From Alentia gelatinosa (lineage: Eukaryota; Annelida; Polychaeta; Phyllodocida; Polynoidae): a DNA stretch of 64,000 bases. The DNA is taken from contig OX465579.1 in assembly GCA_950022655.1 (NCBI GenBank), positions 180,114,303 to 180,178,302 of the forward strand, read 5' to 3'. Both the position numbers and the translations under genes were made by a program. Shown here piece by piece: positions 1,070 through 56,079 of the stretch. The notes beneath the pieces were generated by a model, which had not been told where the DNA came from, did not search any database, and saw only the letters and a program-made list of their open reading frames with translations. Each line of letters opens with the position of its first letter. The first letter of the stretch is position 1.

Positions 1070-1652
1070 ATCCTCCCATGTTGTTCACGTTTTATTCACT
1101 CTCCCCCCGTGTCTCTGCTCACTCTCAGGGCAGAGGCTCAGACGGAGGAGCGGCCGGCAGACCTCATGGTCGACAACACGGGCCGCGTCTTCTGTCATAT
1201 CCTCCCATGTTGTTCACGTTTTACTCACTCTCCACCCCCCCCCCGTATCTGCTCACTCTCAGGGCGGAGGCTCAGACGGAGGAGCGGCCGGCAGACCTCA
1301 TGGTCGACAACACGGGCCGCGTCTTCTGTCATATCCTCCCATGTTGTTCACGTTTTACTCACTCTCCACCCCCCCCCCGTATCTGCTCACTCTCAGGGCG
1401 GAGGCTCAGACGGAGGAGCGGCCGGCAGACCTCATGGTCGACAACACGGGCCGCGTCTTCTGTCATATCCTCCCATGTTGTTCACGTTTTTCTCACTCTC
1501 CCCCCGTGTCTCTGCTCACTCTCAGGGCAGAGGCTCAGACGGAGGAGCGGCCAGCCGACCTCATGGTCGACAACACGGGCCGCGTCTTCTGTAATATCCT
1601 CCCATGTTGTTCACGTTTTACTCACTCTCCACCTGTATCTGCTCACTCTCAG
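1070..1652 (+). repeat. Tandem copies of the exon A acceptor and exon start
   Basis: Four decoy copies (exon-like parts starting near 1129, 1263, 1397 and 1526) precede the true exon A at 1653. Each is about 127-134 bp: a pyrimidine-rich tract, the acceptor ctcactctcag, and about 67 bp nearly identical to the first part of exon A, breaking off at cgcgtcttctg. The true copy alone continues with ggcgccacac. Differences include poly-C length and cggccggc/cggccagc. The decoy at 1263 is 390 nt upstream, so it keeps the reading frame, and that frame is open throughout; the other three would shift the frame. Confidence 0.9.
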
Positions 1653-1856
1653 GGCGGAGGCTCAGACGGAGGAGCGGCCAGCCGACCTCATGGTCGACAA
1701 CACGGGCCGCGTCTTCTGGGCGCCACACAAGGTCTTCAAGAGCGCATGCCTGATCGACGTGACCAACTTCCCGTACGACCAGCACACGTGTTACATGTGG
1801 TTCCAGTCCATGTCGCGCTACAGCTGGCACCTCGACCTCCAGCCCTACCTCAACAG
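1653..1856 (+). CDS. Exon A: Cys-loop exon of a nicotinic-receptor-like ion channel subunit
   Basis: This internal exon encodes part of the extracellular ligand-binding domain of a pentameric Cys-loop channel. The hallmark is a pair of cysteines 13 residues apart enclosing the canonical FPYDQ (ACLIDVTNFPYDQHTCY). Before it, GRVFWAPHKVFKS matches the beta-strand that reads G-V-W-P-P-F-S in nicotinic receptors. After it, the loop B segment reads FQSMSRYSW, where cholinergic alpha subunits have FGSWTYDG, so the ACh-contacting Trp appears to be Met. The exon starts after acceptor ctctcag with one nucleotide completing a split codon. It ends aac-ag before donor gtacgt and joins exon B through AG+C (Ser). 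Earlier exons are not in view. The Cys-loop identity is firm; ligand and subtype are unknown. Confidence 0.9.
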
Positions 1857-3640
1857 GTACGTAAACTGTATTATCCTACCTTAACAGTCACATATAGAGT
1901 GACAGTCCTAAAATTAACAGTCACATAAAGTGTGACAGCCCTACATCAACAGTCACATAAAGAGTGACAGCCCTACATCAACAGTCACATAAAGAGTGAC
2001 AGCCCTACATCAACAGTCACATAAAGAGGGACAGCCCTACAACAACAGTCACATAAAGAGTGACAGCCCTACATCAACAGTCACATATAGAGTGACAGCC
2101 CTACATCAACAGTCACATAAAGAGTGACAGCCCTATCTCAACAGGTACGTAAACTGTATTATCCTACCTCAACAGTCACATAACGTGTGACAGCCCTACA
2201 TCAACAGGTAAAGAGTGACAGCCCTATCTCAACAGGTACGTAAACTGTATTATCCTACCTCAACAGTCACATAACGTGTGACAGCCCTACATCAACAGGT
2301 AAAGAGTGACAGCCCTATCTCAACAGGTACGTAAACTGTATTATCCTACCTTAACAGTCACATATAGAGTGACAGCCCTACATCAACAGTCACATAAAGA
2401 GTGACAGCCCTACATCAACAGTCACATAAAGACAGCCCTACCTCAACAGGTACATAAAGAGTGACAGCCCTACATCAACAGTCACATAAAGAGTGACAGC
2501 CCTACATCAACAGTCACATAAAGTGTGACAGCCCTACATCAACAGTCACATAAAGAGTGACAGCCCTACATCAACAGTCACATAAAGAGTGACAGCCCTA
2601 CATCAACAGTCACATAAAGAGTGACAGCCCTACATCAACAGTCACATAAAGACAGCCCTACATCAACAGTCACATAAAGACAGCCCTACATCAACAGTCA
2701 CATAAAGAGTGACAGCCCTACATCAACAGTCACATAAAGACAGCCCTACATCAACAGGTAAAGAGTGACAGCCCTACATCAACAGTCACATAAAGAGTGA
2801 CAGCCCTACATCAACAGTCACATAAAGAGTGACAGCCCTACATCAACAGTCACATAAAGAGTGACAGCCCTACATCAACAGGTAAAGAGTGACAGCCCTA
2901 CATCAACAGTCACATAAAGAGTGACAGCCCTACATCAACAGTCACATAAAGACAGCCCTACATCAACAGGTAAAGAGTGACAGCCCTACATCAACAGTCA
3001 CATAAAGACAGCCCTACATCAACAGTCACATAAAGAGTGACAGCCCTACATCAACAGTCACATAAAGAGTGACAGCCCTACATCAACAGTCACATAAAGA
3101 TTGACAGCCCTACATCAACAGTCACATAAAGAGTGACAGCCCTACATCAACAGTCACATAAAGAGTGACAGCCCTACATCAACAGTCACATAAAGACTGA
3201 CAGCCCTACCTCAACAGTCACATAAAGAGTGACAGCCCTACATCAACAGTCACATAAAGAGTGACAGCCCTACATCAACAGTCACATAAAGAGTGACAGC
3301 CTACATCAACAGGTAAAGAGTGACAGCCCTACATCAACAGTCACATAAAGAGTGACAGCCCTACATCAACAGTCACATAAAGAGTGACAGCCCTACATCA
3401 ACAGTCACATAAAGAGTGACAGCCCTACATCAACAGTCACATAAAGAGTGACAGCCCTACATCAACAGGTAAAGAGTGACAGCCCTACATCAGCAGTCAC
3501 ATAAAGAGTGACAGCCATACATCAACAGTCACATAAAGAGTGACAGCCCTACATCAACAGTCACATAAAGAGTGACAGCCCTACATCAACAGGTAAAGAG
3601 TGACAGCCCTACATCAACAGTCACATAAAGAGTAACACAC
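1841..3640 (+). repeat. 32-bp minisatellite containing the exon A donor site
   Basis: The unit is about 32 bp (agtcacataaagagtgacag plus ccctacatcaac) and runs for 1.8 kb, about 55 copies with some short ones. The first unit overlaps the last bases of exon A (ccctacctcaacag|gtacgt). Copies near 2140, 2233 and 2327 keep the junction as caacaggtacgtaaactg. Many others read caacaggtaaag, also a good donor; most have decayed to caacagtcac, which lacks GT. Confidence 0.92.
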
Positions 3641-3937
3641 ATGTTACAAGCACCTCTACCTCCAGCCCTCCCTCAACAGGTTAAATAGATCGTTTGTGGA
3701 GGCAGCCATGATAAAGGTGGCTTCTCTACGTAATGTACCATATCTATTTTTGGTTGAGAAATAGAAGATTGAGTCAGAAGCTGTTTAGTTTAGGTTATAT
3801 TTGATGTACAAGAATGATGCCAATATGAGAAGTAACAGTTACAACTGATAATTATCAGTTGACGTACAGGATCCCCTGGATGAAATGTCACTGTAATTTA
3901 GTCCACTGTTCGCAACACCTGCTGCGCTCTCCTGTAG
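3641..3937. other. Unique intron A-B sequence
   Basis: Single-copy-looking intron sequence between two minisatellites. No gene, RNA or transposon was recognised. Confidence 0.5.
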
Positions 3938-5615
3938 GCGAGGATCCTTAACTCTAGAGCCTCACATGATGGGACTGCTCTGTAGGTGAGGATCCTTAAC
4001 TCTAGAGCCTCACATGACGTGACTGCTCTGTAGGTGAGGATCCTTAACTCTAGAGCCTCACATGATGGGACTGCTCTGTAGGTGAGGATCCTTAACTCTA
4101 GAGCCTCACATGATGGGACTGCTCTGTAGGTGAGGAGTCTAAACTCTAGAGCCTCACATGATGGGACTGCTCTGTAAGTGAGGAGTCTAAACTCTAGAGC
4201 CTCACATGATGGGACTGCTCTGTAGGTGAGGAGTCTAAACTCTAGAGCCTCACATGATGGGACTGCTCTGTAAGTGAGGAGTCTAAACTCTAGAGCCTCA
4301 CATGATGGGACTGCTCTGTAGGTGAGGAGTCTAAACTATAGAGCCTCACATGATGGGACTGCTCTGTAAGTGAGGAGTCTAAACTCTAGAGCCTCACATG
4401 ATGGGACTGCTCTGTAGGTGAGGAGTCTGAACTCTAGAGCCTCACATGATGGGACTGCTCTGTAGGTGAGGATCCTTAACTCTAGAGCCTCACATGATGG
4501 GACTGCTCTGTAGGTGAGGATCCTTAACTCTAGAGCCTCACATGATGGGACTGCTCTGTAGGTGAGGAGTCTAAACTCTAGAGCCTCACATGATGGGACT
4601 GCTCTGTAGGCGAGGAGTCTAAACTCTAGAGCCTCACATGATGGGACTGCTCTGTAGGCGAGGAGTCTGAACTCTAGAGCCTCACATGATGGGACTGCTC
4701 TGTAGGTGAGGATCCTCAACTCTAGAGCCTCACATGATGAGACTGCTCTGTAGGTGAGGATCCTTAACTCTAGAGGCTCACATGATGGGACTGCTCTGTA
4801 GGTGAGGATCCTTAACTCTAGAGCCTCACATGATGGGACTGCTCTGTAGGTGAGGATCCTCAACTCTAGAGCCTCACATGATGAGACTGCTCTGTAGGTG
4901 AGGATCCTCAACTCTAGAGCCTCACATGATGGGACTGCTCTGTAGGTGAGGATCCTTAACTCTAGAGGCTCACATGATGGGACTGCTCTGTAGGTGAGGA
5001 TCCTTAACTCTAGAGGCTCACATGATGGGACTGCTCTGTAGGTGAGGATCCTTAACTCTAGAGCCTCACATGATGGGACTGCTCTGTAGGTGAGGAGTCT
5101 AAACTCTAGAGCCTCACATGATGGGACTGCTCTGTAGGTGAGGAGTCTAAACTCTAGAGCCTCACATGATGGGACTGCTCTGTAGGTGAGGAGTCTAAAC
5201 TCTAGAGCCTCACATGATGGGACTGCTCTGTAGGTGAGGATCCTTAACTCTAGAGCCTCACATGATGGGACTGCTCTGTAGGTGAGGATCCTTAACTCTA
5301 GAGCCTCACATGATGGGACTGCTCTGTAGGTGAGGAGTCTAAACTCTAGAGCCTCACATGATGGGACTGCTCTGTAGGTGAGGAGTCTAAACTCTAGAGC
5401 CTCACATGATGGGACTGCTCTGTAGGTGAGGAGTCTAAACTCTAGAGCCTCACATGATGGGACTGCTCTGTAGGTGAGGAGTCTAAACTCTAGAGCTTCA
5501 CATGATGGGACTGCTCTGTAGGTGAGGATCCTTAACTCTAGAGGCTCACATGATGGGACTGCTCTGTAGGTGAGGAGTCTAAACTCTAGAGCCTCACATG
5601 ACGTGACTGCTCTGA
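3938..5615. repeat. 48-bp minisatellite
   Basis: About 35 copies of a 48-bp unit (ctctgtaggtgagg, then atccttaactctagagcctc or agtctaaactctagagcctc, then acatgatgggactg). The two main variants, gatcctta and gagtctaa, are mixed in blocks. Each unit carries TAG|GTGAGG, which resembles a donor site, though no matching exon is visible. Because 48 is divisible by three, the minus strand is open for 450 codons; I regard that as an artefact. Confidence 0.92.
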
Positions 5616-5942
5616 GTGGGGTCACAATGTCCTTTCTGCCTCCCAACAGCGCGGGACTCCAGCGTGCTGTTGAGAGAGCCAGACTCAAGCTAGACTCAAA
5701 TTACCTAGAATCAATAACAATAATCTCATTTACCATCAGAAATCACTGTCATAACACACTTTGCATGCTAAAATCACAGCTTAATGGCGAACTATATTAT
5801 TAGTGTAAGTCTACACAGAATTACTGCCACGCATGACAGTGCTTTGGTGTCTGGAACTAAATGTCTTGCAGGAACTTTTTAATTGCAATAGACTTGTTAT
5901 TAATCTTGTAGGCAGGTAATAAATACAATAAGGACTGGTTTC

Positions 5943-6046
5943 GTATCCGAGTGACCATAATCTCCTTGTAGTTGATGATGTAATATCCTCTCTAATTGCT
6001 CGGATATTATTACACATCAACTACTCGGAGATTACGGCCACTCGTA
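5943..6046. repeat. Imperfect hairpin, possible MITE remnant
   Basis: Arms of about 44 bp (5943-5988 and 6001-6046) are inverted copies: gagtgaccataatctcc pairs with ggagattacggccactc, and gtagttgatg with catcaactac. The loop is about 12 bp. No clear target duplication was found. Confidence 0.65.
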
Positions 6047-6246
6047 CACAGGGACTGCAGCCATGTTAGGTTATAATCCTAAGTCTTTTTAATGTTACGC
6101 ACCTCATTGACACTTCATTATGCTCCCGTGAGACTCGTGCCCTGTTTTTGTACCTCGCGGGGGTGAGGCCATGCACTCTATGACCTCATATATAATATTC
6201 CCTCATAAATCCAGAATTTAATACAAGCAGGATCAGCTATTCAACC

Positions 6247-6990
6247 TTCCCCCGCGTATACCCCACCAGGTGGCGTTATACAACATGCCCCGTGTATACC
6301 CCACCAGGTGGCGTTATACAACATGCCCCACGTATACCCCACCAGGTGGCGTTATACAACATCCCCTGTGTATACCCCACCAGGTGGCGTTATACAACAT
6401 GCCCCGTGTATACCCCACCAGGTGGCGTTATACAACATGCCCCGTGTATGCCCCACCAGGTGGCGTTATACAACATGCCCCATGTATACCCCACCAGGTG
6501 GCGTTATACAACATGCCCCACGTATACCCCACCAGGTGGCGTTATACAACATGCCCCGTGTATACCCCACCAGGTGGCGTTATACAACATGCCCCGTGTA
6601 TACCCACCAGGTGGCGTTATACAACATGCCCTACATATACCCCACCAGGTGGCGTTATACAACATGCCCAACATATACCCCACCAGGTGGCGTTATACAA
6701 CATGCCCCGTGTATACCCCACCAGGTGGCGTTATACAACATCCCCCGTGTATACCCCACCAGGTGGCGTTATACAACATGCCCCATGTATACCCCACCAG
6801 GTGGCGTTATACAACATCCCCCGTGTATACCCCACCAGATGGCGTTATACAACATGCCCCGTGTATACCCCACCAGGTGGCGTTATACAACATGCCCCGT
6901 GTATACCCCACCAGATGGCGTTATACAACATGCCCCGTGTATACCCCACCAGGTGGCGTTATACAACATGCCCAACGAATACCCCACCAG
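6247..6990. repeat. 38-bp minisatellite
   Basis: About 19 copies of gccccgtgtataccccaccag followed by gtggcgttatacaacat, with small variants (cacgtat, catgtat, acatat, cccccgtg). All three plus-strand frames are open across it because the repeat has no stops; no gene is implied. Confidence 0.92.
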
Positions 6991-6999
6991 GCGGCGCCA

Positions 7000-7267
7000 G
7001 TGGGCGTGACGTCACGGTGTACACTGGAGATCAGAGCCCTCTTGTGGAGGTATTTGTGTGTGTAGGGGGCACGTTTTACGACACCCGGGCGGTCCCCTAT
7101 ACGGTGGTGGTGGTAGGTGTGTGTGTAGGGGGAGCGTTGGGGGTTCTGGTACGTGGCATATTTGTGTAGAGATATATTACACAGAGCAAATGTGAGCAGG
7201 CCCGGAGGACCAATATGAGGCTGTGTAGTCTGTGGGGACGTGCCATAAACCCGGGTTTATATGGCAC
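7000..7267. other. Unique intron sequence
   Basis: Intron A-B sequence between two minisatellites, with GT-rich runs near 7040-7150. No gene was recognised. Confidence 0.4.
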
Positions 7268-8345
7268 CCCCTGTATTAATTAGTGTGTGACTTCTCTGTA
7301 TGATATATTGAGTTGATGTTATCGTAAACCTGTATTAATTAGTATGTGCCTTCTCTGATGTTAGTTTCATTATAAACCTGTATTAATTAGTGTGTGACTT
7401 CTTTGATGTTAGTGTTATTATAAACCTGTATTAATTAGTGTGTGCCTTCTCTGATGTTAGTTTCATTATAAACCTGTATTAATTAGTGTGTGACTTCTTT
7501 GATGTTAGTGTTATTATAAACCTGTATTAATTAGTGTGTGACTTCTCTGATGTTAGTTTCATTATAAACCTGTATTAATTAGTGTGTGACTTCTCTGATG
7601 TTAGTTTCATTATAAACCTGTATTAATTAGTGTGTGACTTCTCTTATGTTAGTTTCATTATAAACCTGTATTAATTAGTATGTGACTTCTCTGATGTTAG
7701 TTTCATTATAAACCTGTATTAATTAGTGTGTGACTTCTCTTATGTTAGTTTCATTATAAACCTGTATTAATTAGTGTATGACTTCTCTGATTTTAGTTTC
7801 TTTATAAACCTGTATTAATTAGTGTGTGACTTCTCTTATGTTAGTTTCATTATAAACCTGTATTAATTAGTGTATGACTTCTCTGATGTTAGTTTCATTA
7901 TAAACCTGTATTAATTAGTATGTGACTTCTCTGATGTTAGTTTCATTATAAACCTGTATTAATTAGTGTGTGACTTCTCTGATGTTAGTTTCATTATAAA
8001 CCTGTATTAATTAGTATGTGACTTCTCTGATGTTAGTTTCATTATAAACCTGTATTAATTAGTGTGTGACTTCTCTGATGTTAGTTTCATTATAAACCTG
8101 TATTAATTAGTGTGTGACTTCTCTTATGTTAGTTTCATTATAAACCTGTATTAATTAGTATGTGACTTCTCTGATGTTAGTTTCATTATAAACCTGTATT
8201 AATTAGTGTGTGACTTCTCTTATGTTAGTTTCATTATAAACCTGTATTAATTAGTGTGTGACTTCTCTGATGTTAGTTTCATTATAAACCTGTATTAATT
8301 AGTGTGACTTCTCTGATGTTACTGTTATTGTAAACTTGTTTTTTG
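7268..8345. repeat. 48-bp AT-rich minisatellite
   Basis: About 21 copies of a unit like tataaacctgtattaattag followed by tgtgtgacttctctgatgttagtttcat. Variants include gtatgtg, ttatgtt and tgttatt. Homogeneous in the middle and degenerate at both ends. Confidence 0.9.
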
Positions 8346-8396
8346 TTAGTGTGTGACTTCTCTGATGTTACTGTTATTGGAAACCTTTATTAATTA

Positions 8397-8700
8397 TTAT
8401 TGTACCCCTGTTATCTGTTATTTACGGTGTACTGTCAACTATAATTTATTTACGGTATACTGTTAACTATAATTTATTTACGGTTTACCTCGCAGCCCGT
8501 GGGACCTGGACACATACCTGTAAGTGTCAAAGCGGGCCGTACATACCACACTGGGCAGTATATGGTATTATTGTACCCCTGTTAACCATTATTTACGGTG
8601 TACTGTCAACTATGATTTATTTACGGTATACCGTTAATTATAATTTATTTACGGTTTACCTGTCTGCCCGCAGCCCGTGGGACCTGGACACGTACCTGGG
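8397..8700 (+). repeat. Direct duplication of the exon B acceptor region
   Basis: About 127 bp at 8397-8523 recurs at 8573-8700, roughly 90% alike by eye. Shared blocks include attattgtacccctgtta, ttatttacggtgtactgtc and cagcccgtgggacctggaca. The right copy leads into true exon B. The left copy has the acceptor and the first 24 exon bases, then runs into ctgtaagtg. Confidence 0.85.
8496..8519 (+). other. Possible 24-nt in-frame microexon (decoy of exon B start)
   Basis: In the left copy of the duplicated acceptor region, acceptor tcgcag is followed by 24 nt nearly identical to the start of exon B and then by a near-consensus donor, cct|gtaagt. Its entry and exit phases match the exon A to exon B junction. 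Inclusion would therefore add eight residues, repeating PWDLDTYL, just before the same residues from exon B. This is geometry only; use in mRNA is not shown. Confidence 0.35.
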
Positions 8701-8942
8701 CAGCTTCAAGGAGTCCCAGGAGTGGGAGATCAAGACGAACCTGACGGAACGCTTCACCCAGTCACGTGACGTGGGCGTGCTGCTCAAGTTCTCGCGGCGC
8801 CCGGCGCTGCGCTTCTCGCTGTCCGTGAGACGGCGTCTCGGCTACACGTGTCACCTGCTGATGCTGCCTGGTGTCTTCCTCATCTCGATGACCCTCGTTG
8901 TCTTCTGTCTGCCACCCGAGCGACCCGACAGGCACAGTCTGG
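8674..8942 (+). CDS. Exon B: end of ligand domain and TM1 of the Cys-loop receptor
   Basis: The exon starts after tgcccgcag with the C that completes the split Ser codon and ends ctg-g before donor gtatgt. It encodes SPWDLDTYLGSF (compare the WDL strand of nicotinic receptors), an NLTE N-glycosylation sequon, the pre-TM1 strand LRFSLSVRRR, TM1 (about YTCHLLMLPGVFLISMTLVV) and the TM1-TM2 linker LPPERPDRHSL. The vicinal cysteine pair of loop C that defines alpha subunits is absent. With the loop B Trp also missing, this is a non-alpha or non-cholinergic subunit. The last base joins exon C to give Ala. Its donor is the founder of the huge array that follows. Confidence 0.92.
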
Positions 8943-11900
8943 GTATGTACGGGTAGATGTTTAATTAGATATGTCCACAGACAGGCACAGTCTGGGTATG
9001 TACGGGTAGACGTTTAATTAGATATGTCCACTGACAGGTACAGCCTGGGTATGTAGATGTTTAATTAGATATGTCCACTGCCATGCACAGCCTGGGTATG
9101 TACGGGTAGATGTTTAATTAGATATGTCCACTGACAGGCACAGTCTGGGTATGTAGACGTTTAATTAGATATGTCCACTGACAGGCACAGTCTGGGTATG
9201 TAGATGTTTAATTAGATATGTCCACTGACAGGCACAGCCTGGGTATGTAGATGTTTAATTAGATATGTCCACTGACAGGCACAGCCTGGGTATGTAGATG
9301 TTTAATTAGATATGTCCACTGACAGGCACAGCCTGGGTATGTAGGGGTAGATGTTTAATTAGATATGTCCACTGACAGGCACAGCCTGGGTATGTAGATG
9401 TTTAATTAGATATGTCCACTGACAGGCACAGTCTGGGTATGTACGGGTAGATGTTTAATTAGATATGTCCACAGACAGGCACAGTCTGGGTATGTACGGG
9501 TAGATGTTTAATTAGATATGTCCACTGACAGGCACAGTCTGGGTATGTACGGGTAGATGTTTAATTAGATATGTCCACTGACAGGCACAGTCTGGGTATG
9601 TACGGGTAGATGTTTAATTAGATATGTCCGCTGACAGGCACAGTCTGGGTATGTACGGGTAGATGTTTAATTAGATATGTCCACTGACAGGCACAGCCTG
9701 GGTATGTACGGGTAGATGTTTAATTAGATATGTCCGCTGACAGGCACAGCCTGGGTATGTAGATGTATAATTAGATATGTCCACTGACAGGCACAGTCTG
9801 GGTATGTACAGGTAGATGTTTAATTAGATATGTCCACTGACAGGCACAGTCTGGGTATGTAGATGTTTAATTAGATATGTCCACAGACAGGCACAGTCTG
9901 GGTATGTAGATGTTTAATGAGATATGTCCACAGACAGGCACAGTCTGGGTATGTACGGGTAGATGTTTAATTAGATATGTCCACTGACAGGCACAGTCTG
10001 GGTATGTACGGGTAGATGTTTAATTAGATATGTCGACTGACAGGCACCGTCTGGGTATGTACGGGTAGATTTATAATCCTAGTTCACTGTTCACTGACAG
10101 GCACAGTCTGGGTATGTACGGGTAGATGTTTAATTAGATATGTCCACAGACAGGCACAGCCTGGGTATGTACGGGTAGATGTTTAATTAGATATGTCCAC
10201 TGACAGGCACAGCCTGGGTATGTACGGGTAGATGTTTAATTAGATATGTCCACAGACAGTCACAGCCTGGGTATGTACGGGTAGATGTTTAATTAGATAT
10301 GTCCACTGACAGGCACAGTCTGGGTATGTACGGGTAGATGTTTAATTAGATATGTCCACAGACAGGCACAGTCTGGGTATGTACGGGTAGATGTATAATT
10401 AGATATGTCCACAGACAGGCACAGTCTGGGTATGTACGGGTAGATGTTTAATTAGATATGTCAACAGACAGGCACAGCCTGGGTATGTACGGGTAGATGT
10501 TTAATTAGATATGTCCACTGACAGGCACAGTCTGGGTATCTACGGGTAGATGTTTAATTAGATATGTCCACAGACAGGCACAGTCTGGGTATGTACGGGT
10601 AGATGTTTAATTAGATATGTCACAGACAGGCACAGCCTGGGTATGTACGGGTAGACGTTTAATTAGATATGTCCACTGACAGGCACAGTCTGGGTATGTA
10701 CGGGTAGATGTTTAATTAGATATGTCCACTGACAGGCACAGTCTGGGTATGTACGGGTAGATGTTTAATTAGATATGTCCACTGCCATGCACAGCCTGGG
10801 TATGTACGGGTAGATGTATAATTAGATATGTCCACTGACAGGCACAGTCTGGGTATGTACGGGTAGATGTTTAATTAGATATGTCCACTGCCATGCACAG
10901 CCTGGGTATGTACGGGTAGATGTTTAATTAGATATGTCTACTGACAGGTACAGCCTGGGTATGTAGATGTTTAATTAGATATGTCCACAGACAGGCACAG
11001 TCTGGGTATGTAGATGTTTAATGAGATATGTCCACTGACAGGCACAGTCTGGGTATGTACGGGTAGATGTATAATTAGATATGTCCACTGACAGGCACAG
11101 CCTGGGTATGTACGGGTAGATGTTTAATTAGATATGTCCGCTGACAGGCACAGTCTGGGTATGTAGATGTATAATTAGATATGTCCACAGACAGGCACAG
11201 TCTGGGTATGTACGGGTAGATGTTTAATTAGATATGTCCACTGACAGGCACAGTCTGGGTATGTACGGGTAGATGTTTAATTAGATATGTCCACTGACAG
11301 GCACAGTCTGGGTATCTACGGGTAGATGTTTAATCAGATATGTCCACAGACAGGCACAGTCTGGGTATGTACGGGTAGATGTTTAATTAGATATGTCCAC
11401 AGACAGGCACAGTCTGGGTATGTACGGGTAGATGTTTAATTAGATATGTCCACAGACAGGCACAGTCTGGGTATGTACGGGTAGATGTTTAATGAGATAT
11501 GTCCACAGACAGGCACAGCCTGGGTATGTACGGGTAGATGTTTAATTAGATATGTCCACAGACAGGCACAGTCTGGGTATGTACGGGTAGATGTTTAATT
11601 AGATATGTCCACAGACAGGCACAGCCTGGGTATGTACGGGTAGATTTATAATCCTAGTTCACTGTTCACTGACAGGCACAGTCTGGGTATGTACGGGTAG
11701 ATGTTTAATTAGATATGTCCACAGACAGGCACAGTCTGGGTATGTACGGGTAGATGTTTAATTAGATATGTCCACAGACAGGCACAGTCTGGGTATGTAC
11801 GGGTAGATGTTTAATTAGATATGTCCACAGACAGGCACAGTCTGGGTATGTACGGGTAGATGTATAATTAGATATGTCCACTGACAGGCACAGTCTGGGT

Positions 11901-14900
11901 ATGTACAGGTAGATGTATAATTAGATATGTCCACAGACAGGCACAGCCTGGGTATGTACGGGTAGATGTTTAATTAGATATGTCCACAGACAGGCACAGT
12001 CTGGGTATGTACGGGTAGATGTATAATTAGATATGTCCACTGACAGGCACAGTCTGGGTATGTACAGGTAGATGTATAATTAGATATGTCCACAGACAGG
12101 CACAGCCTGGGTATGTACGGGTAGATGTTTAATTAGATATGTCCACAGACAGGCACAGTCTGGGTATGTACGGGTAGATGTTTAATTAGATATGTCCACT
12201 GACAGGCACAGCCTGGGTATGTACCAGTAGATGTTCAATTAGATATGTCCACAGACAGGCACAGTCTGGGTATGTACGGGTAGATGTTTAATTAGATATG
12301 TCCACTGACAGGCACAGTCTGGGTATGTACGGGTAGATGTTTAATGAGATATGTCCACAGACAGGCACAGTCTGGGTATGTACGGGTAGATGTTTAATTA
12401 GATATGTCAACAGACAGGCACAGTCTGGGTATGTACGGGTAGATGTTTAATTAGATATGTCCACTGACAGGCACAGTCTGGGTATGTACGGGTAGATGTT
12501 TAATTAGATATGTCCACTGCCATGCACAGCCTGGGTATGTACGGGTAGATGTTTAATTAGATATGTCCGCTGACAGGCACAGCCTGGGTATGTACGGGTA
12601 GATGTTTAATTAGATATGTCCGCTGACAGGCACAGTCTGGGTATGTACGGGTAGATGTTTAATGAGATATGTCCACAGACAGGCACAGCCTGGGTATGTA
12701 CGGGTAGATGTTTAATTAGATATGTCCACAGACAGGCACAGTCTGGGTATGTACGGGTAGATGTTTAATTAGATATGTCCACAGACAGGCACAGTCTGGG
12801 TATGTACGGGTAGATGTTTAATTAGATATGTCCACTGACAGGCACAGTCTGGGTATGTAGACGTTTAATTAGATATGTCCACAGACAGGCACAGTCTGGG
12901 TATGTAGATGTTTAATTAGATATGTCCACAGACAGGCACAGTCTGGGTATGTACGGGTAGATGTTTAATTAGATATGTCCACAGACAGGCACAGTCTGGG
13001 TATGTACGGGTAGATGTTTAATTAGATATGTCCACAGACAGGCACAACCTGGGTATGTAGACGTTTAATTAGATATGTCCACAGACAGGCACAGTCTGGG
13101 TATGTAGATGTTTAATTAGATATGTCCACAGACAGGCACAGCCTGGGTATGTACGGGTAGATGTTTAATTAGATATGTCCACTGACAGGCACAGCCTGGG
13201 TATGTACGGGTAGATGTTTAATTAGATATGTCCACAGACAGGCACAGTCTGGGTATGTACGGGTAGATGTTTAATAAGATATGTCCACTGACAGGCACAG
13301 CCTGGGTATGTACGGGTAGATGTTTAATTAGATATGTCCGCTGACAGGCACAGTCTGGGTATGTACGGGTAGATGTTTAATTAGATATGTCCACAGACAG
13401 GCACAGTCTGGGTATGTACGGGTAGATGTTTAATTAGATATGTCCACAGACAGGCACAGTCTGGGTATGTACGGGTAGATGTTTAATTAGATATGTCCAC
13501 TGACAGGCACAGCCTGGGTATGTAGATGTTTAATTAGATATGTCCACTGACAGGCACAGTCTGGGTATGTACGGGTAGATGTTTAATTAGATATGTCCAC
13601 TGACAGGCACAGTCTGGGTATGTAGATGTTTAATTAGATATGTCCACAGACAGGCACAGTCTGGGTATGTAGATGTTTAATGAGATATGTCCACAGACAG
13701 GCACAGCCTGGGTATGTACGGGTAGATGTTTAATTAGATATGTCCACAGACAGGCACAGTCTGGGTATGTACGGGTAGATGTTTAATTAGATATGTCCAC
13801 AGACAGGCACAGTCTGGGTATGTACGGGTAGATGTTTAATTAGATATGTCCACTGACAGGCACAGTCTGGGTATGTACGGGTAGATGTTTAATTAGATAT
13901 GTCGACTGACAGGCACTGTCTGGGTATGTACGGGTAGATTTATAATCCTAGTTCACTGTTCACTGACAGGCACAGTCTGGGTATGTACGGGTAGATGTTT
14001 AATTAGATATGTCCACAGACAGGCACAGTCTGGGTATGTAGATGTATAATTAGATATGTTCACTGACAGGCACAGCCTGGGTATTTACGGGTAGACGTTT
14101 AATTAGATATGTCCACTGACAGGCACAGTCTGGGTATGTACGGGTAGATGTTTAATTAGATATGTCCACTGACAGGCACAGTCTGGGTATGTACGGGTAG
14201 ATGTTTAATTAGATATGTCCACTGCCATGCACAGCCTGGGTATGTACGGGTAGATGTTTAATTAGATATGTCCACTGACAGGCACAGCCTGGGTATGTAC
14301 GGGTAGATGTTTAATTAGATATGTCCACAGACAGGCACAGTCTGGGTATGTAGATGTTTAATGAGATATGTCCACAGATAGGCACAGCCTGGGTATGTAG
14401 ATGTTTAATTAGATATGTCCACTGACAGGCACAGTCTGGGTATGTACGGGTAGATGTTTAATTAGATATGTCCACTGACAGGCACAGTCTGGGTATGTAC
14501 GGGTAGATGTTTAGTTAGATATGTCCACTGACAGGCACAGTCTGGGTATGTACGGGTAGATGTATAATTAGATATGTCCACTGACAGTCACAGCCTGGGT
14601 ATGTACGGGTAGATGTTTAATTAGATATGTCCACTGACAGGCACAGTCTGGGTATGTACGGGTAGATGTTTAATTAGATATGTCCACTGACAGGCACAGT
14701 CTGGGTATGTAGATGTATAATTAGATATGTCCACTGACAGGCACAGTCTGGGTATGTACGGGTAGATGTTTAATTAGATATGTCCACTGACAGGCACAGC
14801 CTGGGTATGTAGATGTTTAATTAGATATGTCCACTGACAGGCACAGTCTGGGTATGTACGGGTAGATGTTTAATTAGATATGTCCACAGACAGGCACAGT

Positions 14901-16752
14901 CTGGGTATGTACGGGTAGATGTTTAATGAGATATGTCCACTGACAGGCACAGTCTGGGTATGTACGGGTAGATGTTTAATGAGATATGTCCACAGACAGG
15001 CACAGTCTGGGTATGTACGGGTAGATGTTTAATTAAATATGTCCACAGACAGGCACAGTCTGGGTATGTACGGGTAGATGTTTAATTAGATATGTCCACA
15101 GACAGGCACAGTCTGGGTATGTACGGGTAGATGTTTAATTAGATATGTCCACAGACAGGCACAGTCTGGGTATGTACGGGTAGATGTATAATTAGATATG
15201 TCCACAGACAGGCACAGTCTGGGTATGTACGGGTAGATGTTTAATTAGATATGTCCACAGACAGGCACAGTCTGGGTATGTACGGGTAGATGTTTAATTA
15301 GATATGTCCACAGACAGGCACAGCCTGGGTATGTACGGGTAGATGTTTAATTAGATATGTCCACTGACAGGCACAGTCTGGGTATGTACGGGTAGATGTT
15401 TAATTAGATATGTCCACTGACAGGCACAGCCTGGGTATGTAGATGTATAATTAGATATGTCCACTGACAGGCACAGTCTGGGTATGTAGATGTTTAATTA
15501 GATATGTCCACAGACAGGCACAGTCTGGGTATGTAGATGTTTAATTAGATATGTCCACAGACAGGCACAGTCTGGGTATGTACAGGTAGATGTTTAATTA
15601 GATATGTCCACAGACAGGCACAGCCTGGGTATGTACGGGTAGATGTTTAATTAGATATGTCAACAGACAGGCACAGTCTGGGTATGTACAGGTAGATGTA
15701 TAATTAGATATGTCCACAGACAGGCACAGTCTGGGTATGTACAGGTAGATGTTTAATTAGATATGTCCACAGACAGGCACAGCCTGGGTATGTACGGGTA
15801 GATGTTTAATTAGATATGTCAACAGACAGGCACAGTCTGGGTATGTACAGGTAGATGTATAATTAGATATGTCCACTGACAGGCACAGCCTGGGTATGTA
15901 CGGGTAGATGTTTAATTAGATATGTCAACAGACAGGCACAGTCTGGGTATGTACGGGTAGATGTTTAATGAGATATGTCCACAGACAGGCACAGCCTGGG
16001 TATGTACGGGTAGATGTTTAATTAGATATGTCCACTGACAGGCACAGTCTGGGTATGTACAGGTAGATGTTTAATTAGATATGTCAACAGACAGGCACAG
16101 TCTGGGTATGTACGGGTAGATGTTTAATGAGATATGTCCACAGACAGGCACAGCCTGGGTATGTACGGGTAGATGTTTAATTAGATATGTCCACTGACAG
16201 GCACAGCCTGGGTATGTACGGGTAGATGTTTAATTAGATATGTCAACAGACAGGCACAGTCTGGGTATGTACGGGTAGATGTTTAATTAGATATGTCCAC
16301 TGACAGGCACAGCCTGGGTATGTAGATGTTTAATTAGATATGTCCACTGACAGGCACAGTCTGGGTATGTACGGGTAGATGTTTAATTAGATATGTCCAC
16401 AGACAGGCACAGCCTGGGTATGTACGGGTAGATGTTTAATTAGATATGTCCACTGACAGGCACAGCCTGGGTATGTACGGGTAGATGTTTAATTAGATAT
16501 GTCAACAGACAGGCACAGTCTGGGTATGTACGGGTAGATGTTTAATGAGATATGTCCACAGACAGGCACAGCCTGGGTATGTACGGGTAGATGTTTAATT
16601 AGATATGTTCACTGATAGGCACAGTCTGGGTATGTACGGGTAGATGTTTAATTAGATATGTCCGCTGACAGGCACAGTCTGGGTATGTACGGGTAGATGT
16701 TTAATTAGATATGTCCACTGACAGGCACAGCCTGGGTATGTACGGGTAGATG
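8929..16752 (+). repeat. 7.8-kb minisatellite built from the exon B donor site
   Basis: Roughly 150 copies of a 53-bp unit: caggcacagtctgggtatgt, then acgggtagatgtttaattag, then atatgtccactga. A 47-bp variant lacks acgggt. The first unit overlaps the last exon B bases, so each copy preserves about 14 exon bases and the donor ctgg|gtatgt. Variable sites (tct/cct, cacaga/cactga, ttagat/tgagat) recur in blocks. A distinct variant with tttataatcctagttcactg appears near 10070, 11645 and 13940, marking larger-scale duplications. Confidence 0.97.
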
Positions 16753-16824
16753 TTAGATGTCTTAGTTGCATCCCTCGCAGCAGGTATTTCCTAGCCGTTC
16801 GACTAGAGGTGTGTAATAACAGGA

Positions 16825-17383
16825 TGTAAAGTCTGGGGCCCTTATGCATAAGGAGTACACCATAAGAGAAGACATTCAGAACTCAAACACAGAGGTACTA
16901 CGTGCTACTATGAGTCAGAACTTGAGACTGTTTATTGACAGGAAAGAGTCCTTGTTTATACCCCTAGCAGGGGTTGACATGACAGGCTTGGCATCTGTGA
17001 GCTCTGCGCTCTCATTGGCTGTTGTACCAACACCAATAGGGGATGACCAAATTGTTCCAGTTGTGTGTCCGTTCTGGTTTGTCACACATGTCAGGAGGCC
17101 GCTCATGACACTGAAGAACTGGAAGTGTCATTGGTAGAGTGACCTGCCCTCATGTGGACATACTGGGAACTAAAGCTGTGTGATAATAGGAGTATTATAT
17201 GCCATTCAAGGCATGGCAGCCATACTGTAAACATCAGGGAGGAGGTTACTTACCAAAATGGTGACTGAACCAATTCAGTCAATTTGTTCCTCAACAATAA
17301 GGGGTAATTTAAGTAATTACTTTCTTCTCGTAGAAACCAATATTACTTGGCCACGATAGGGATGTATAGAGCGGAACTTTACC
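16825..17383 (-). mobile_element. Solo LTR, family TGTAAAG (copy 1, degraded end)
   Basis: It reads on the minus strand and is related to the LTRs at 31739 and 61640. The plus strand begins TGTAAAGTCTGG and ends gcggaactttacc, where TTTACA is expected, so one terminal base has mutated. Shared internal blocks include the promoter (TATAAA on the minus strand at 16955-16960), ccaatggcatt-like sequence and gaggaacaaattgact. No clear target duplication remains. The plus-strand 97-residue ORF inside it is not a gene. Confidence 0.75.
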
Positions 17384-17581
17384 GGGCGATTTAAGAGCAG
17401 GTGGAAGAAGATGATGAGCGTATGAGCGCTGAAAGCCTTGCCGTAACAGATGCCTTATACCCGGTAAAAAGTAGTCCCTCCGCGCGCCGCCGGTGAAAAG
17501 GCTAGGCGGAGGATACGGGGGGAGAGTGTAGACAGGGGAGAAGGTGGCAGCTGGCAGTGTGTGGTCGGCCGAGATGAATGT

Positions 17582-18137
17582 GAGGCGGGGTGAGGGCGGG
17601 GTGAGGGCGGGGTGAGGGCGGGGTGAGGGCGGGGTGAGGGCGGGGTGAGGGCGGGGTGAGGGCGGGGTGAGGGCGGGGTGAGGGCGGGGTGAGGGCGGGG
17701 TGAGGGCGGGGTGAGGGGGGGTGAGGGCGGGGTGAGGGCGGGGTGAGGGCGGGATGAGGGCGGGGTGAGGGCGGGATGAGGGCGGGGTGAGGGCGGGGTG
17801 AGGGCGGGGTGAGGGCGGGGTGAGGGCGGGGTGAGGGCGGGGTGAGGGCGGGGTGAGGGCGGGGTGAGGGCGGGGTGAGGGGGGGGTGAGGGGGGGTGAG
17901 GGCGGGGTGAGGGCGGGGTGAGGGCGGGATGAGGGCGGGGTGAGGGCGGGATGAGGGCGGGGTGAGGGCGGGGTGAGGGCGGGGTGAGGGCGGGGTGAGG
18001 GCGGGGTGAGGGCGGGGTGAGGGCGGGGTGAGGGCGGGGTGAGGGGGGGGTGAGGGCGGGGTGAGGGCGGGGTGAGTGCGGGGTGAGGGCGGGGTGAGGG
18101 CGGGGTGAGGGCGGGGTGAGGGCGGGGTGAGGGCGGG
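17582..18137. repeat. 11-bp G-rich minisatellite with quadruplex potential
   Basis: About 50 copies of GGGGTGAGGGC on the plus strand, with a few ggggggtg and gggatgag variants. Every unit has G-runs of three and four, so the displaced strand could form many G-quadruplexes. It lies about 300 bp upstream of the TM2 exon. The Pro-rich minus-strand ORF across it is a repeat artefact. Confidence 0.95.
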
Positions 18138-18437
18138 CCGGACGTCAGGGTTGGAGGGTAGGAGAGGGGGACGGAGGAGGGTGGGAGGAGGGCAGCTGGC
18201 GGGGGGAGGCTGATAGACTACGGCGGCATGCTGAGCTGATAGGATCAAAACACATGAATTCCCGGGGGCGCTGCTCCGACTCGTCAGTCACCACAGCCGC
18301 CGGACGAGCCACAATGAGTCCCGCAGACACGACTCTAAACAGGTCGACTATACACCAGCAGGCGGCCGCACTGTGTTCTGAACCGCAGCTGAGTTATAGT
18401 AATTGGTACTTTATGTAGTTCTCCGTTATCTTTTCAG

Positions 18438-18524
18438 CCATGAGCCTGTTCGGAAGTTTTATGGTGCTTTTATTGATATTGGTGGAGGTGGCTCCCCCAA
18501 CGGCGGCGTCTATACCTAAATTAG
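18438..18524 (+). CDS. Exon C: TM2 pore helix of the Cys-loop receptor
   Basis: An 87-nt exon with acceptor tatcttttcag and donor g|gtgagt. It completes the Ala codon from exon B and reads AMSLFGSFMVLLLILVEVAP then PTAASIPKL, plus the first base of a Gly codon finished by exon D. Aligned to vertebrate alpha7, the charged rings are kept (Asp at -1', Arg at 0', Glu at 20'), as are Ser 2', Ser 6' and Val 13'. This favours cation permeation. The near-invariant 9' Leu gate residue is Gly. The exon is too short for most ORF callers but fits phase and family on both sides. Confidence 0.9.
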
Positions 18525-18885
18525 GTGAGTTCTCCGATAAGAATTCTTCTCAACTTTATAAACTTTATGTCAATTTACGATATGGGAACTCTAGCCGTGA
18601 TTCTATCATTAAAGTTACCAACACCTTGTAAATAACACACCTTTCTATGCTCGGCTTCACTGTGTTTTACATATTACACGTGCACTATGGCGCAGTCTAC
18701 AGGCCTCTTCTGTGTGTAGTATAGGGAAACATTGTTAGTGTGACTGAATGGAATCTGTTAAATATTGTTTTGTGTCTGAAATGTTCCCCAAGTTCGTATT
18801 GGTACAGTGTGCATGAATTGTTAGTTTTTACACATTGAATTGTGCACGAATGAATGCGACATTCCTGCTCAAATACATGATACTT

Positions 18886-20563
18886 TTTATGGGACATATT
18901 ACGCGTGTAATATATTGACATATCTCTGTATATTTACAGGGACATACTACGCGTGTAATATATTGACATGTTTCTGTATGTTTACATGGACATATTACGC
19001 GTGTAATATATTGACATGTTTCTGTATGTTTACAGGGACATATTACGCGTGTAATATATTGACATGTTTCTGTATGTTTGCAGGGACATATTACGCGTGT
19101 AATATATTGACATGTTTCTGTATGTTTACAGGGACATACTACACATGTAATATATTGATGTGTTTCTGTATGTTTACAGGGACATACTACACATGTAATA
19201 TATTGATGTGTTTCTGAATTTTTACAAGGACATATTACACATGTAATATATTGACATATTTCTGTATTTTTACAGGGACATATTACGTGTGTAATATATT
19301 GACATATCTCTGTATGTTTACAGGGACATATTACGCATGTAATATATTCACGTAATTCTGTATGTTTACAGGGACATATTACGCTGTAAAACTTTGACGT
19401 GTTTCTGTATGTTTGCAGGGTATTAATACATGCGTAATATATTGACGTGTTTCTGTATGTTTACAGGGACATATTACACATGTAGTATATTGTGTTTCTG
19501 TATGTTTACAGGGACATATTACACGTGTAATATATTGACGTGTTTCTGTATGTTTACAGGGACATATTACGCGTGTAATATATTGACATGTTTCTGTATG
19601 TTTACAGGGACATATTACGCGTGTAATATATTGACATGTTTCTGTATGTTTACAGGGACATATTATGCATGTAATATATTGACATATTTCTGTATGTTTA
19701 CAGGGACATATTATGCGTGTAATATATTGACGTGTTTCTGTATGTTTACAGGGACATACTACGCGTGTAATATATTGACATGTTTCTGTATGTTTGCAGG
19801 GACATATTACGTGTGTAATATATTGACGTGTTTCTGTATTTTTACAGGGACATACTACACATGTAATATATTGATGTGTTTCTGAATTTTTACAAGGACA
19901 TATTACACATGTAATATATTGACATATTTCTGTATTTTTACAGGGACATATTACGTGTGTAATATATTGACATATCTCTGTATGTTTACAGGGACATATT
20001 ACGCATGTAATATATTCACGTAATTCTGTATGTTTACAGGGACATATTACGCTGTAAAACTTTGACGTGTTTCTGTATGTTTGCAGGGTATTAATACGTG
20101 CGTAATATATTGACGTGTTTCTGTATGTTTACAGGGACATATTACACATGTAGTATATTGTATTTCTGTATGTTTACAGGGACATATTACACGTGTAATA
20201 TATTGACGTGTTTCTGTATGTTTACAGGGACATATTACGCGTGTAATATATTGACATGTTTCTGTATGTTTACATGGACATATTACGCGTGTAATATATT
20301 GACATGTTTCTGTATGTTTACAGGGACATATTATGCATGTAATATATTGACATATTTCTGTATGTTTACAGGGACATATTACGCATGTAATATATTGACG
20401 TGTTTCTGTATGTTTACAGGGACATACTACGCGTGTAATATATTGACATGTTTCTGTATGTTTACAGGGACATACTACATGTGTAATATATTGACGTGTT
20501 TCTGTATGTTTACAGGGACATACTACGTGTGTAATATATTGACGTGTTTCTGTATTTTTACAG
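18886..20563 (+). repeat. 48-bp minisatellite built from the exon D acceptor
   Basis: About 35 copies of ggacatattacgcgtgtaat, then atattgacatgtttctgtat, then gtttacag. Each copy carries a polypyrimidine-like tract, an acceptor (tttacag) and the first about 20 bases of exon D. The unit is 16 codons without a stop (repeating GTYYACNILTCFCMFT), so upstream acceptors keep the phase of true exon D. A block with degenerate units (tacaagg, gtattaatac) at about 19216-19450 recurs at about 19884-20118, a higher-order period of about 668 bp. Confidence 0.95.
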
Positions 20564-20682
20564 GGACATACTACGCGTGCAATATGACACTCGTCATGTT
20601 GTCCATCTTCCTCTCCGGGACGGTGGTCAATGTCAGTCGGCGAGGAGAGACCAGAGTTAAAGTACCTTTTCTGGTCAAGTTT
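20564..20682 (+). CDS. Exon D: TM3 of the Cys-loop receptor
   Basis: It starts after tatttttacag and completes Gly, then TYYACNMTLVMLSIFLSG and TVVNVSRRGETRVKVPFLVKF, ending in phase 0 before gtaagt. It aligns with the TM2-TM3 loop and TM3 of nicotinic receptors (pattern G-Y-MT-V-SI-V-T-V-N-H-R). The basic SRRGETR segment corresponds to the start of the TM3-TM4 loop. The acceptor used here is the last of about 35 near-identical tandem acceptors. It was chosen because only this copy continues into coding sequence (aatatgacactcgtc) rather than back into the repeat. Confidence 0.92.
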
Positions 20683-20689
20683 GTAAGTA

Positions 20690-21290
20690 ACAATGACACT
20701 TTACATCAAAACATCCATTTTACATTATTTATTGCTATAAATTGTATATACTATTTCATTTTCTCATTTTCTGTACGTTATAATAAAAATATTAAATAAA
20801 TCTTTCATGGTGAATTATGTTTCAAAGCAACAGCTAGGTTCCCCAATGAATAAGAAAAAGAAAGACATTGACAATCGATCTTTTTTTTTATCCTGCACCA
20901 ATATCTTTCATGATTTATTTGGGGAGTATCAGAAGCAGAGACTTTGATGAATGCGCTAGATATGAATTAAATCCGCTTGGGTCTTTTTATGATCCACCTA
21001 ACACAGGGTGTCCATAGAAAAAACAAATAGGGAGTGTGTATCACCATACTCGGATCATACAGATATGTTGTATACTGCGGAAAAATAGTGCGCATGAAAA
21101 AATAGTGCATACTTAAATGAACTAATATTGGTGCGCCACTTGTCAGGAAAAGTGGATGATAAATACAATATAGACTGGTTTCAGATAAAAGTGTTTCTAT
21201 GCTCCTTGGAGTTGACTCTGCGCTCGGATATGACTATGCGTCAACTCCTGGGAGAAAACACCCATCGTCTGAATGATCGTGTAAGTGAGT
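20690..21290. other. Unique intron D-E sequence
   Basis: AT-rich intron sequence following the exon D donor. No gene, RNA or mobile element was recognised. Confidence 0.5.
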
Positions 21291-22805
21291 TATTCTCTCT
21301 ATTGCAGGTTTTCATCGACATCTTGTCCTATCCACTGTTTAGCATATATCTCTTAGTTATTGTGTAAAAAACTAAATCTCTCCATTGCAGGTTTTCATCG
21401 ACATCTTGTCCTACCCGCTGTTTCGAATATATCTTTAATGTTTTAATGTAATAAGTAAATCTCTCTATTGCAGGTTTTTCATCGACATCTTGTCCTACCC
21501 GCTGTTTAGCATATATCTTTAATGTTTTAATGTAATAAGTAAATCTCTCTATTGCAGGTTTTCATCGACATCTTGTCCTATCCACTGTTTAGCATATATC
21601 TTTTAGTTATTGTGTAAAAAACTAAATCTCTCCATTGCAGGTTTTCATCGACATCTTGTCCTACCCGCTGTTTAGAATATATCTTTAATGTTTTAATGTA
21701 ATAAGTAAATCTCTCTATTGCAGGTTTTTCATCAACATCTTGTCCTACCCGCTGTTTAGCGTATATCTTTAATGTTTTAATGTAATAAGTAAATCTCTCT
21801 ATTGCGGGTTTTCATCGACATCTTGTCCTACCCACTGTTTAGCGTATACCTCTAATTTATAATGTAAGTAAGTAAATCTCTCTATTGCAGGTTTTCATCG
21901 ACATTCTGTCCTACCCGCTGTTTAGCGTATATCTTTAATGTATTATGTAAATAATTAAATCTCTCCGTTGCAGGTTTTCATCGACATTCTGTCCTACCCG
22001 CTGTTTAGAATATATCTTTAATGTTTTAATGTAATAAGTAAATCTCTCTATTGCAGGTTTTTCATCGACATCTTGTCCTACCCGCTGTTTAGCATATATC
22101 TTTAATGTTTTAATGTAATAAGTAAATCTCTCTATTGCAGGTTTTTCATCAACATCTTGTCCTACCCGCTGTTTAGCGTATATCTTTAATGTTTTAATGT
22201 AATAAGTAAATCTCTCTATTGCGGGTTTTCATCGACATCTTGTCCTACCCACTGTTTAGCGTATACCTCTAATTTATAATGTAAGTAAGTAAATCTCTCT
22301 ATTGCAGGTTTTCATCGACATTCTGTCCTACCCGCTGTTTAGCGTATATCTTTAATGTATTATGTAAATAATTAAATCTCTCCGTTGCAGGTTTTCATCG
22401 ACATTCTGTCCTACCCGTTGTTTAGCGTATATCTTTAATGTATTATGTAAATAAGTTAATCTCTCCGTTGCAGGTTTTCATCGATATTCTGTCCTACCCG
22501 CTATTTAGCGTATATCTTTAATGTATTATGTAAATAAGTAAATCTCTCCGTTGCAGGTTTTCATCGACATTCTGTCCTACCCGCTGTTTAGCGTATATCT
22601 TTAATATATTATGTAAATAAGTAAATCTCTCCGTTGCAGGTTTTCATCGACATTCTGTCCTACCCGCTGTTTAGCGTATATCTTTAATATATCATGTAAA
22701 TAAGTAAATCTCTCCGTTGCAGGTTTTCATCGACATTCTGTCCTACCCGCTGTTTAGCGTATATCTTTAATGTATTATGTAAATAAGTAAATCTCTCCGT
22801 TGCAG
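21290..22805 (+). repeat. About 83-bp minisatellite built from the exon E acceptor
   Basis: About 18 copies. Each has a polypyrimidine tract and acceptor (tctctctattgcag), then about 30 bp of exon E start (gttttcatcgacatc), then tttagcgtatatctttaatg instead of coding sequence. Every decoy therefore encodes VFIDILSYPLF, a few residues and a stop. Two copies read attgcggg and have lost the AG. Sub-blocks repeat at about 418 bp (the tacctctaatttataatg variant near 21847 and 22265). Confidence 0.95.
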
Positions 22806-23267
22806 GTTTTCATCGACATTCTGTCCTACCCACTGCTGCTCCGGAAGCGCGTCTCAGGGCCCTTCACCTCCAAGTCTCGCATGCACGACCTGCGCGAGAG
22901 GAGCCGCCAACAGGAAGCGGAAGACGCCGCCATGGCCGCCTCCAACGCGTCGGCCTTCGTGAGCGCGCAGCCTCTGTCTCAGAACGTCTACAACTACCCC
23001 GTCCCGCCACTCGACGCCCACCCCGCCACCGCCACCAACGGCCTCAACACCAACGACTCCATCGTGCAGATGGACCGGAAGTTACGTCACATGGAGACGC
23101 TGGTGGCCCGGATGGGGACGGGGGACGCGGACGCCGACCCGCTGCGGACGCTCAAGGCGCAGTGGCGGAACGTGGCGGTGGTGATGGACCGACTCTTCTT
23201 CCTGCTCTATCTCATCATTATCGTCACCACTCTCATCGTCCTCTTCCCCTGGCCTAATTACTCGTGA
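22806..23267 (+). CDS. Exon E: intracellular loop, TM4 and C-terminus of the Cys-loop receptor
   Basis: The last exon enters in phase 0 after ctccgttgcag. It encodes VFIDILSYPLLLRKR (compare nicotinic KVFLDILPRLL-R), then an intracellular loop rich in Ala, Asn and Pro with a charged helix (RMHDLRERSRQQEAEDAA). Next come a pre-TM4 amphipathic MA-like segment (MDRKLRHMETLVARM) and WRNVAVVMDRLFFLLYLII, running into TM4 and ending LFPWPNYS before TGA. This is the typical W-V-A-V-DR-L-F signature of nicotinic TM4. At about 110 residues, the TM3-TM4 loop is of ordinary to short length. The GC-rich, codon-biased composition contrasts with the AT-rich repeats before it. Confidence 0.93.
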   Translation, partial: VFIDILSYPLLLRKRVSGPFTSKSRMHDLRERSRQQEAEDAAMAASNASAFVSAQPLSQNVYNYPVPPLDAHPATATNGLNTNDSIVQMDRKLRHMETLVARMGTGDADADPLRTLKAQWRNVAVVMDRLFFLLYLIIIVTTLIVLFPWPNYS

Positions 23268-35087: not shown

Positions 35088-35252
35088 CGTAGTGTGTTCA
35101 TCAGTCTGCAAGGTAAAGTAATGGGTTCTCAATTTGATGTGGACTCAGAGAAATGGGTGATATTTGGGAATGTATCCACAGTAAAGATTTGTATATATAG
35201 CGAACGTCAATAAAGACACAACGAGTAAATCCTGTGCTCAAGTATTAATATA

Positions 35253-45523: not shown

Positions 45524-45562
45524 AAAAAACCCAGTGAGTAGATCCAACTGTGTGCTATCATC

Positions 45563-56074: not shown

Positions 56075-56079
56075 CCTAG

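Follow-up and report, generated by a model that had tools for sequence, protein, structure and literature searches.

Tandem arrays whose repeat unit straddles an exon-intron border are present at seven of 13 junctions of a nicotinic-type Cys-loop receptor gene of the scale worm Alentia gelatinosa. Exons A to E of this gene occupy the left part of the stretch analyzed here (the window; 64,000 bp, C1:180,114,303-180,178,302), and six of the seven arrays lie at these exons. An original prediction, made from the window sequence alone, held that splice junctions of the gene each bear minisatellites; exon-edge probes, Tandem Repeats Finder (TRF) and BLAST, with a clean reverse-complement control, confirm that the arrays are real. 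The arrays generalize beyond the receptor gene, at donors and acceptors alike. The probable explanation is ordinary tandem duplication, locally frequent, combined with a sieve imposed by coding sequence.

The genome searched, a single haplotype, comprised 1,234,393,884 bases in 101 contigs, slightly below the 1,237.5 Mb and 192 scaffolds given in the available part of the assembly report (PMC10980856), so small scaffolds may be missing. According to the same text, the assembly (wpAleGela1.1) was built from PacBio HiFi and Hi-C data with a quality value (QV) of 59.4, and RNA-seq exists for the species (ERR11242532; PMC10980856).

The Receptor Gene and Its Junction Arrays

The exon map was drawn from reading frame and GT-AG borders, and all internal borders of exons A to E are GT-AG. 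Joined, exons A to E form an open frame of 379 residues matching the Pfam domains Neur_chan_LBD (2.5e-15) and Neur_chan_memb (3.2e-19). The best solved relatives of the joined protein are nicotinic receptor subunits, and its named homologues are annelid. It can be aligned with six homologues, of which P0001 (52% identity, 100% covered) and P0002 are continuous across all four exon joints. The gene is located near the end of chromosome 1 (C1, 180,793,948 bp), at a distance of about 0.65 Mb. The exons are as follows.

1653-1856, + strand: exon A, ligand-binding domain (GT-AG, frame, homology)
8674-8942, + strand: exon B, end of the ligand-binding domain and M1 (GT-AG, frame, homology)
18438-18524, + strand: exon C, M2; no exon-edge copies on either side (GT-AG, frame, homology; probes, BLAST)
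20564-20682, + strand: exon D, M3; no copies at the donor (GT-AG, frame, homology; probes)
22806-23267, + strand: exon E, loop, M4 and stop, the stop near 23267 (frame, homology)

Copies of each exon edge were sought with probes in the adjacent intron, on both strands, and the counts vary with probe and cut-off. The predicted numbers of copies stood at the acceptor of exon A (four), the acceptor of exon B (one), the donor of exon B (98-150 found, about 150 predicted) and the acceptor of exon E (16-18 found, about 18 predicted). They shifted from about 55 to 57-58 at the donor of exon A (three with a 20-nt probe) and from about 35 to 25-33 at the acceptor of exon D, where TRF gives 35 units. 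At the exon B acceptor, reading the sequence gives a two-copy duplication of 171 bp. The reverse-complement control returned 0 copies for each probe, and when every exon, extended by 60 nt on either side, was compared by BLAST with the full window, only plus-strand copies appeared. Probes found no exon-edge copies in the introns adjacent to the exon C acceptor, the exon C donor and the exon D donor; the prediction had named only the exon C donor as free of an array, and in this it was mistaken. With four acceptors and three donors among the seven junctions, acceptors are amplified as well as donors, as it had said. The arrays at exons A to E are listed below.

1068-1718, + strand: exon A acceptor array, 134 bp x 5, last unit the real junction (TRF, BLAST, probes)
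1840-3681 (TRF 1875-3637), + strand: exon A donor array, basic unit 32 bp, 58 edge copies (TRF, BLAST, probes)
8405-8701, bounds approximate, + strand: exon B acceptor two-copy tandem duplication of 171 bp (read by eye, one probe copy; not one array in TRF)
8927-16754, + strand: exon B donor array, 53 bp x 150 (TRF, BLAST, probes)
18891-20585, + strand: exon D acceptor array, 48 bp x 35 (TRF, BLAST, probes)
21280-22835, + strand: exon E acceptor array, 83 bp x 18.7 (TRF, BLAST, probes)

The genuine junction is the terminal unit of its array and the reading frame of exons A to E is intact; the expectation that the first or last unit would be the real junction thus agrees with a joined frame that is open and aligned through all four joints. 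For conserved exon pieces the direction is from exon to array. Each unit carries 66 (A acceptor), 17 (A donor), about 28 (B acceptor), 16 (B donor), 22 (D acceptor) or 30 (E acceptor) exonic nucleotides, and the longest exon match in the A-donor array, the last 30 nt of the exon, sits at its far end (3650-3681). The canonical dinucleotide is kept at decoy sites in 4/4 copies at the A acceptor, 13/58 at the A donor, 1/1 at the B acceptor, 150/150 at the B donor (GT), 28/33 at the D acceptor (AG) and 16/18 at the E acceptor (AG).

Two further observations concern these arrays. Selection on decoy splice motifs, judged by column conservation, gave no clear signal: in the B-donor unit the splice-motif columns are not more conserved than many other columns. 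The region of the exon D acceptor array (18825-20799, + strand) contains long stretches that stay open in the reading frame of exon D, with a 16-residue repeat, and use of an upstream acceptor within this 48-bp array could give in-frame isoforms.

Chance Expectation and Other Genes

If founders were placed uniformly, the receptor gene would be expected to hold 0.26 junctional arrays. Its present introns are 66-88% repeat, and the fair null is therefore one in which each array is collapsed to one unit, for which the expectation is 0.92. Observed are five junctional arrays by strict TRF overlap and seven by homology, a five- to eightfold excess with collapsed introns. The claim that the pattern could not be chance therefore stands in substance for this gene, softened by the higher expectation of 0.92. 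In the part of the gene outside the view of the original prediction, one of 30 arrays is junctional (P 0.065-0.20).

Because the receptor gene had been chosen for its arrays, other genes were sampled. From 70 exon matches to the myosin head family, the first 60 were taken with 270 bp on each side, blind to repeats; 21 hand-picked exons of receptor paralogues were added, for a combined 162 exon sides. In an edge scan of these, eight sides exceeded the 99.5% level of mismatched partners, vs. two with the flank inverted, and six scored at least 47, the null maximum being 40.

Junction arrays were found at 5 of the 120 myosin exon sides. Four of these sides belong to one gene (C9:61.37-61.40 Mb), in which a single exon is bordered by arrays on both sides, 86 bp x 4.4 at its acceptor and 51 bp x 17 at its donor, and the fifth is a donor of a second myosin gene (C9:7.30 Mb). 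Among the receptor paralogues, the one at C1:16.77 Mb has a donor array, that at C2:13.74 Mb an acceptor array barely over the threshold (scan score 24), and that at C2:67.96 Mb a weak donor array below it. Outside the window gene this makes three acceptors and five donors, counting the weak case L039.

The sampled flanks contain 18 clear arrays, of which seven span a junction vs. 2.4-2.7 expected (about 2.6- to 2.9-fold; P 0.005-0.009, a nominal value given that several arrays come from one gene). Exon-internal arrays numbered 0 in the sample vs. 3.9 expected (P 0.012).

As a separate observation, an array of 93-bp units lies 3' of a myosin donor array (C9:61373410-61374110, in L111) and resembles by eye the upstream flank of L081, in another myosin gene 54 Mb away; judged from this likeness, the two are probably copies of a dispersed element.

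Chromosomal Setting

Among the genes sampled, junction arrays are strongest in two genes near chromosome ends, the receptor gene and the myosin gene at C9:61.37-61.40 Mb. The latter is the only sampled myosin gene less than 3 Mb from a chromosome end, and four of its eight sampled sides have arrays, vs. 1 of 112 for all remaining myosin exons together (nominal P 4e-5). Ten consecutive 10-kb stretches upstream of the window are 38-100% tandem repeat, much of it the receptor gene's own introns, and the window itself is 40%; ten 10-kb stretches spread along the rest of chromosome 1 have 0-18%. Within the final 3 Mb of C1, the repeat shares of five 4-kb stretches are 0.29, 0.56, 0.25, 0 and 0.34. 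Human minisatellites are likewise frequent near chromosome ends, and some papers mention subtelomeric minisatellites in their titles or abstracts. From these data we infer that minisatellites are born rapidly in a zone close to the chromosome ends, with isolated cases in other places.

A single receptor-gene intron holds a 22-kb array of 344 copies of a 66-bp unit (C1:180082752-180105123).

Breakpoints, Coding Sieve and Alternatives

Repeat coverage was measured in 30-nt bins outward from the exon core to 270 nt, giving 0.059, 0.079, 0.080, 0.076, 0.068, 0.076, 0.074, 0.063 and 0.051; over this flank, and with few arrays underlying the test, there is no peak at the exon border. In 11 units measured by hand the exon part ranges from 16 to 97 nt and its share of the unit from 0.16 to 0.76, with no register, and 4 of the 11 unit lengths are divisible by three, as in random or untranslated sequence. 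An array also crosses a coding border that is not a splice junction, namely the stop codon of a small membrane-protein-like gene on the minus strand (open reading frame [ORF] 58263-58868):

57872-58309, - strand: 116 bp x 4 array, unit spanning the stop codon of ORF 58263-58868 (end of coding sequence and 3' sequence; TRF)

A relative, ORF 35918-36439, has two copies of the same stop-codon tail. Both belong to a set of five minus-strand ORFs (34590-35144, 35918-36439, 53727-54179, 55580-56230 and 58263-58868) that appear small and membrane-protein-like, with PPPY-like motifs, several of them clearly related; the first has no Pfam match. The tail is in tandem in two of the five, with four and two copies, the real one counted.

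Because coverage is flat, units show no register and an array spans a stop codon, random duplications followed by coding selection are favored over a process tied to splicing. On the chemistry of duplication, the selection and the choice of splice site, we infer the following. Small tandem duplications of tens to about 170 bp would arise and expand very often, seemingly above all near chromosome ends, and their breakpoints could land anywhere. A duplication wholly within an exon would damage the protein and be lost; one wholly within an intron would survive. A duplication straddling a junction would survive too, its exon-proximal copy (the first at a donor, the last at an acceptor) remaking the original exon and the rest becoming intron, and one straddling a stop codon would be tolerated likewise. 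Later slippage or unequal exchange could then produce tens to hundreds of units. Correct splicing would need the decoys to be ignored and the exon-proximal site to be used, as exon definition predicts.

Several points weigh against this account. A sieve alone would not produce the excess of junction arrays over uniform placement that is seen in the sample and still more in the receptor gene. The flat-coverage test has few arrays and covers only 270 nt of flank, and normal splicing is presumed from DNA. The subterminal concentration consists of two genes, one of them ascertained; repeats are absent from a 4-kb stretch 1.5 Mb short of the C1 end and from another located 300 kb from the C1 start, and junction arrays are present in chromosome interiors as well, in receptor paralogues.

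The leftover excess leaves room for a moderate bias, and the alternative closest to the prediction is that splice junctions are preferred founding sites, through a composition step, an R-loop, nicking, or transcription pausing at bound U1/U2. The predicted process that duplicates DNA across splice boundaries is only partly supported: in its favor are the 7 of 18 arrays found at junctions in the repeat-blind sample, and the excess in the receptor gene. Against it stand coverage that does not change with distance from exons, scattered breakpoints, an array over a stop codon, and P values that are nominal with several arrays per gene. We therefore consider preferred founding at junctions unlikely, though worth keeping in view.

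A different possibility is that the arrays mark recent gain or movement of introns via duplication of exon segments, as in the Rogers and tandem-genomic-duplication models and as suggested for amphioxus globins. Here the receptor family does offer a hint, since the homologous ligand-binding exon stops at seven distinct donor positions across nine receptor genes (L030, L035, L039, L041, L043, L045, L047, L049 and window exon A), a sign of much turnover in intron position, and the intron between exons A and B is missing at that site in the two closest paralogues, whose intron sits further on; such an absence carries less weight in a family with intron places this variable. Most junction arrays nevertheless border introns not known to be new, and repeats without border sequence are abundant, which makes intron gain an improbable general explanation.

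It is slightly less probable still that the arrays were selected for a function, such as a reservoir of splice sites, control of intron length or alternative in-frame isoforms. GT follows all 150 B-donor edge copies, and in exon D, whose 48-bp array is open in the frame of the exon, an upstream acceptor could add 16-residue repeats. However, GT is missing in 45 of 58 A-donor copies, seven of the 11 measured units are not multiples of three, the B-donor splice motif is no better conserved than many other columns, and the two closest paralogues (nine exons) have only 1 of 18 sides in the scan. An assembly artefact, in which collapse or expansion of repeats imitates junction arrays, is hardly credible: long arrays are hard to assemble and exact copy numbers may be wrong, but the assembly is PacBio HiFi with QV 59.4 by the available account (PMC10980856), the units have diverged from one another, and the pattern recurs at unrelated loci on several chromosomes.

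Other Features of the Window

Four further arrays within receptor introns are not junctional.

3932-5614, unstranded: intronic array, 48 bp x 35 (TRF)
6250-6996, unstranded: intronic array, 38 bp x 20 (TRF)
7325-8396, unstranded: intronic array, 48 bp x 22 (TRF)
17580-18137, unstranded: intronic array, 11 bp x 51 (TRF)

At 40335-47530 (+ strand), three long consecutive ORFs resemble, by reading, gag, pol and env-like genes such as those of a long terminal repeat (LTR) retroelement of Ty3/gypsy type.

Significance and Comparison With Known Systems

Occurrence in several unrelated genes of an annelid means that such arrays, called mirages in amphioxus, are not a lancelet peculiarity. To our knowledge and in the papers found, arrays under this name are known only in lancelets. 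The scale worm offers a natural experiment on splice-site choice, with up to 150 near-identical donors beside one exon, of which the cell must take the first. Together, the array over the stop codon and the lack of a coverage peak hint at a simple rule, namely neutrality of a duplication across a coding border of whatever kind; on that rule, repeats would be expected to accumulate at intron borders in any place with rapid tandem duplication. A bolder conjecture, which we hold to be unlikely, is that in animals whose chromosome ends give rise to minisatellites very actively there is a real founding bias at coding borders, and that the arrays supply decoy splice sites and exon fragments on a large scale and so drive the fast turnover of intron positions in the worm's receptor family. 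Were that so, mirages would act as a general driver of changes in intron position and not be an amphioxus oddity.

In the available portions of the lancelet papers, mirage minisatellites are described in Adh3 and the globins BflGb6 and BflGb9, with a unit spanning the exon-intron boundary at donor or acceptor (PMC3087553), and one in PGBD5 was added later, with troponin C cited (PMC3902484). The globin mirages leave regular splicing undisturbed, and a route to intron gain was proposed for them (PMC3087553). The likeness to amphioxus that had been predicted is borne out: units of 10-160 bp lie over the boundary, donors or acceptors are involved, and the real junction is kept (PMC3087553, PMC3902484). 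By anatomy, that is, a boundary-spanning unit, a kept junction and both boundary types, the scale worm arrays belong with the lancelet mirages. A supposed contrast, that amphioxus has mainly donor arrays, does not agree with the text available, where the BflGb6 mirage is at an acceptor and the legend of Figure 6 gives both boundaries (PMC3087553). The scale worm differs in other respects: it is an annelid, its arrays reach 150 units, they occupy 7 of the 13 junctions of the receptor gene and flank a single myosin exon on both sides, they include a stop-codon border, and in the genes sampled they are concentrated near chromosome ends.

Among the matches listed for tandem repeats and splice junctions in annelids and for scale-worm minisatellites, titles and the openings of abstracts mention no junction arrays. 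Earthworm metallothionein genes likewise have intronic minisatellites in an annelid, with copies of the fourth exon that are not in the transcript, and the parts of that paper available describe no units spanning a splice junction (PMC12783039). Tandem-genomic-duplication intron gain in potato RdRp, as presented in the accessible text, likewise begins with a tandem duplication within a gene (PMC4974935). In the scale worm, unlike in potato, the duplication crosses a junction that is already there, and a new intron need not arise. The potato duplication is said to include exon sequence. Human internal tandem repeats in segmental duplications are likewise of minisatellite size and located at exon-intron boundaries, and the available part of that study reports that they alter transcripts and can form new introns, whereas in the scale worm the exon is intact and the copies are presumably intronic (PMC2812944).

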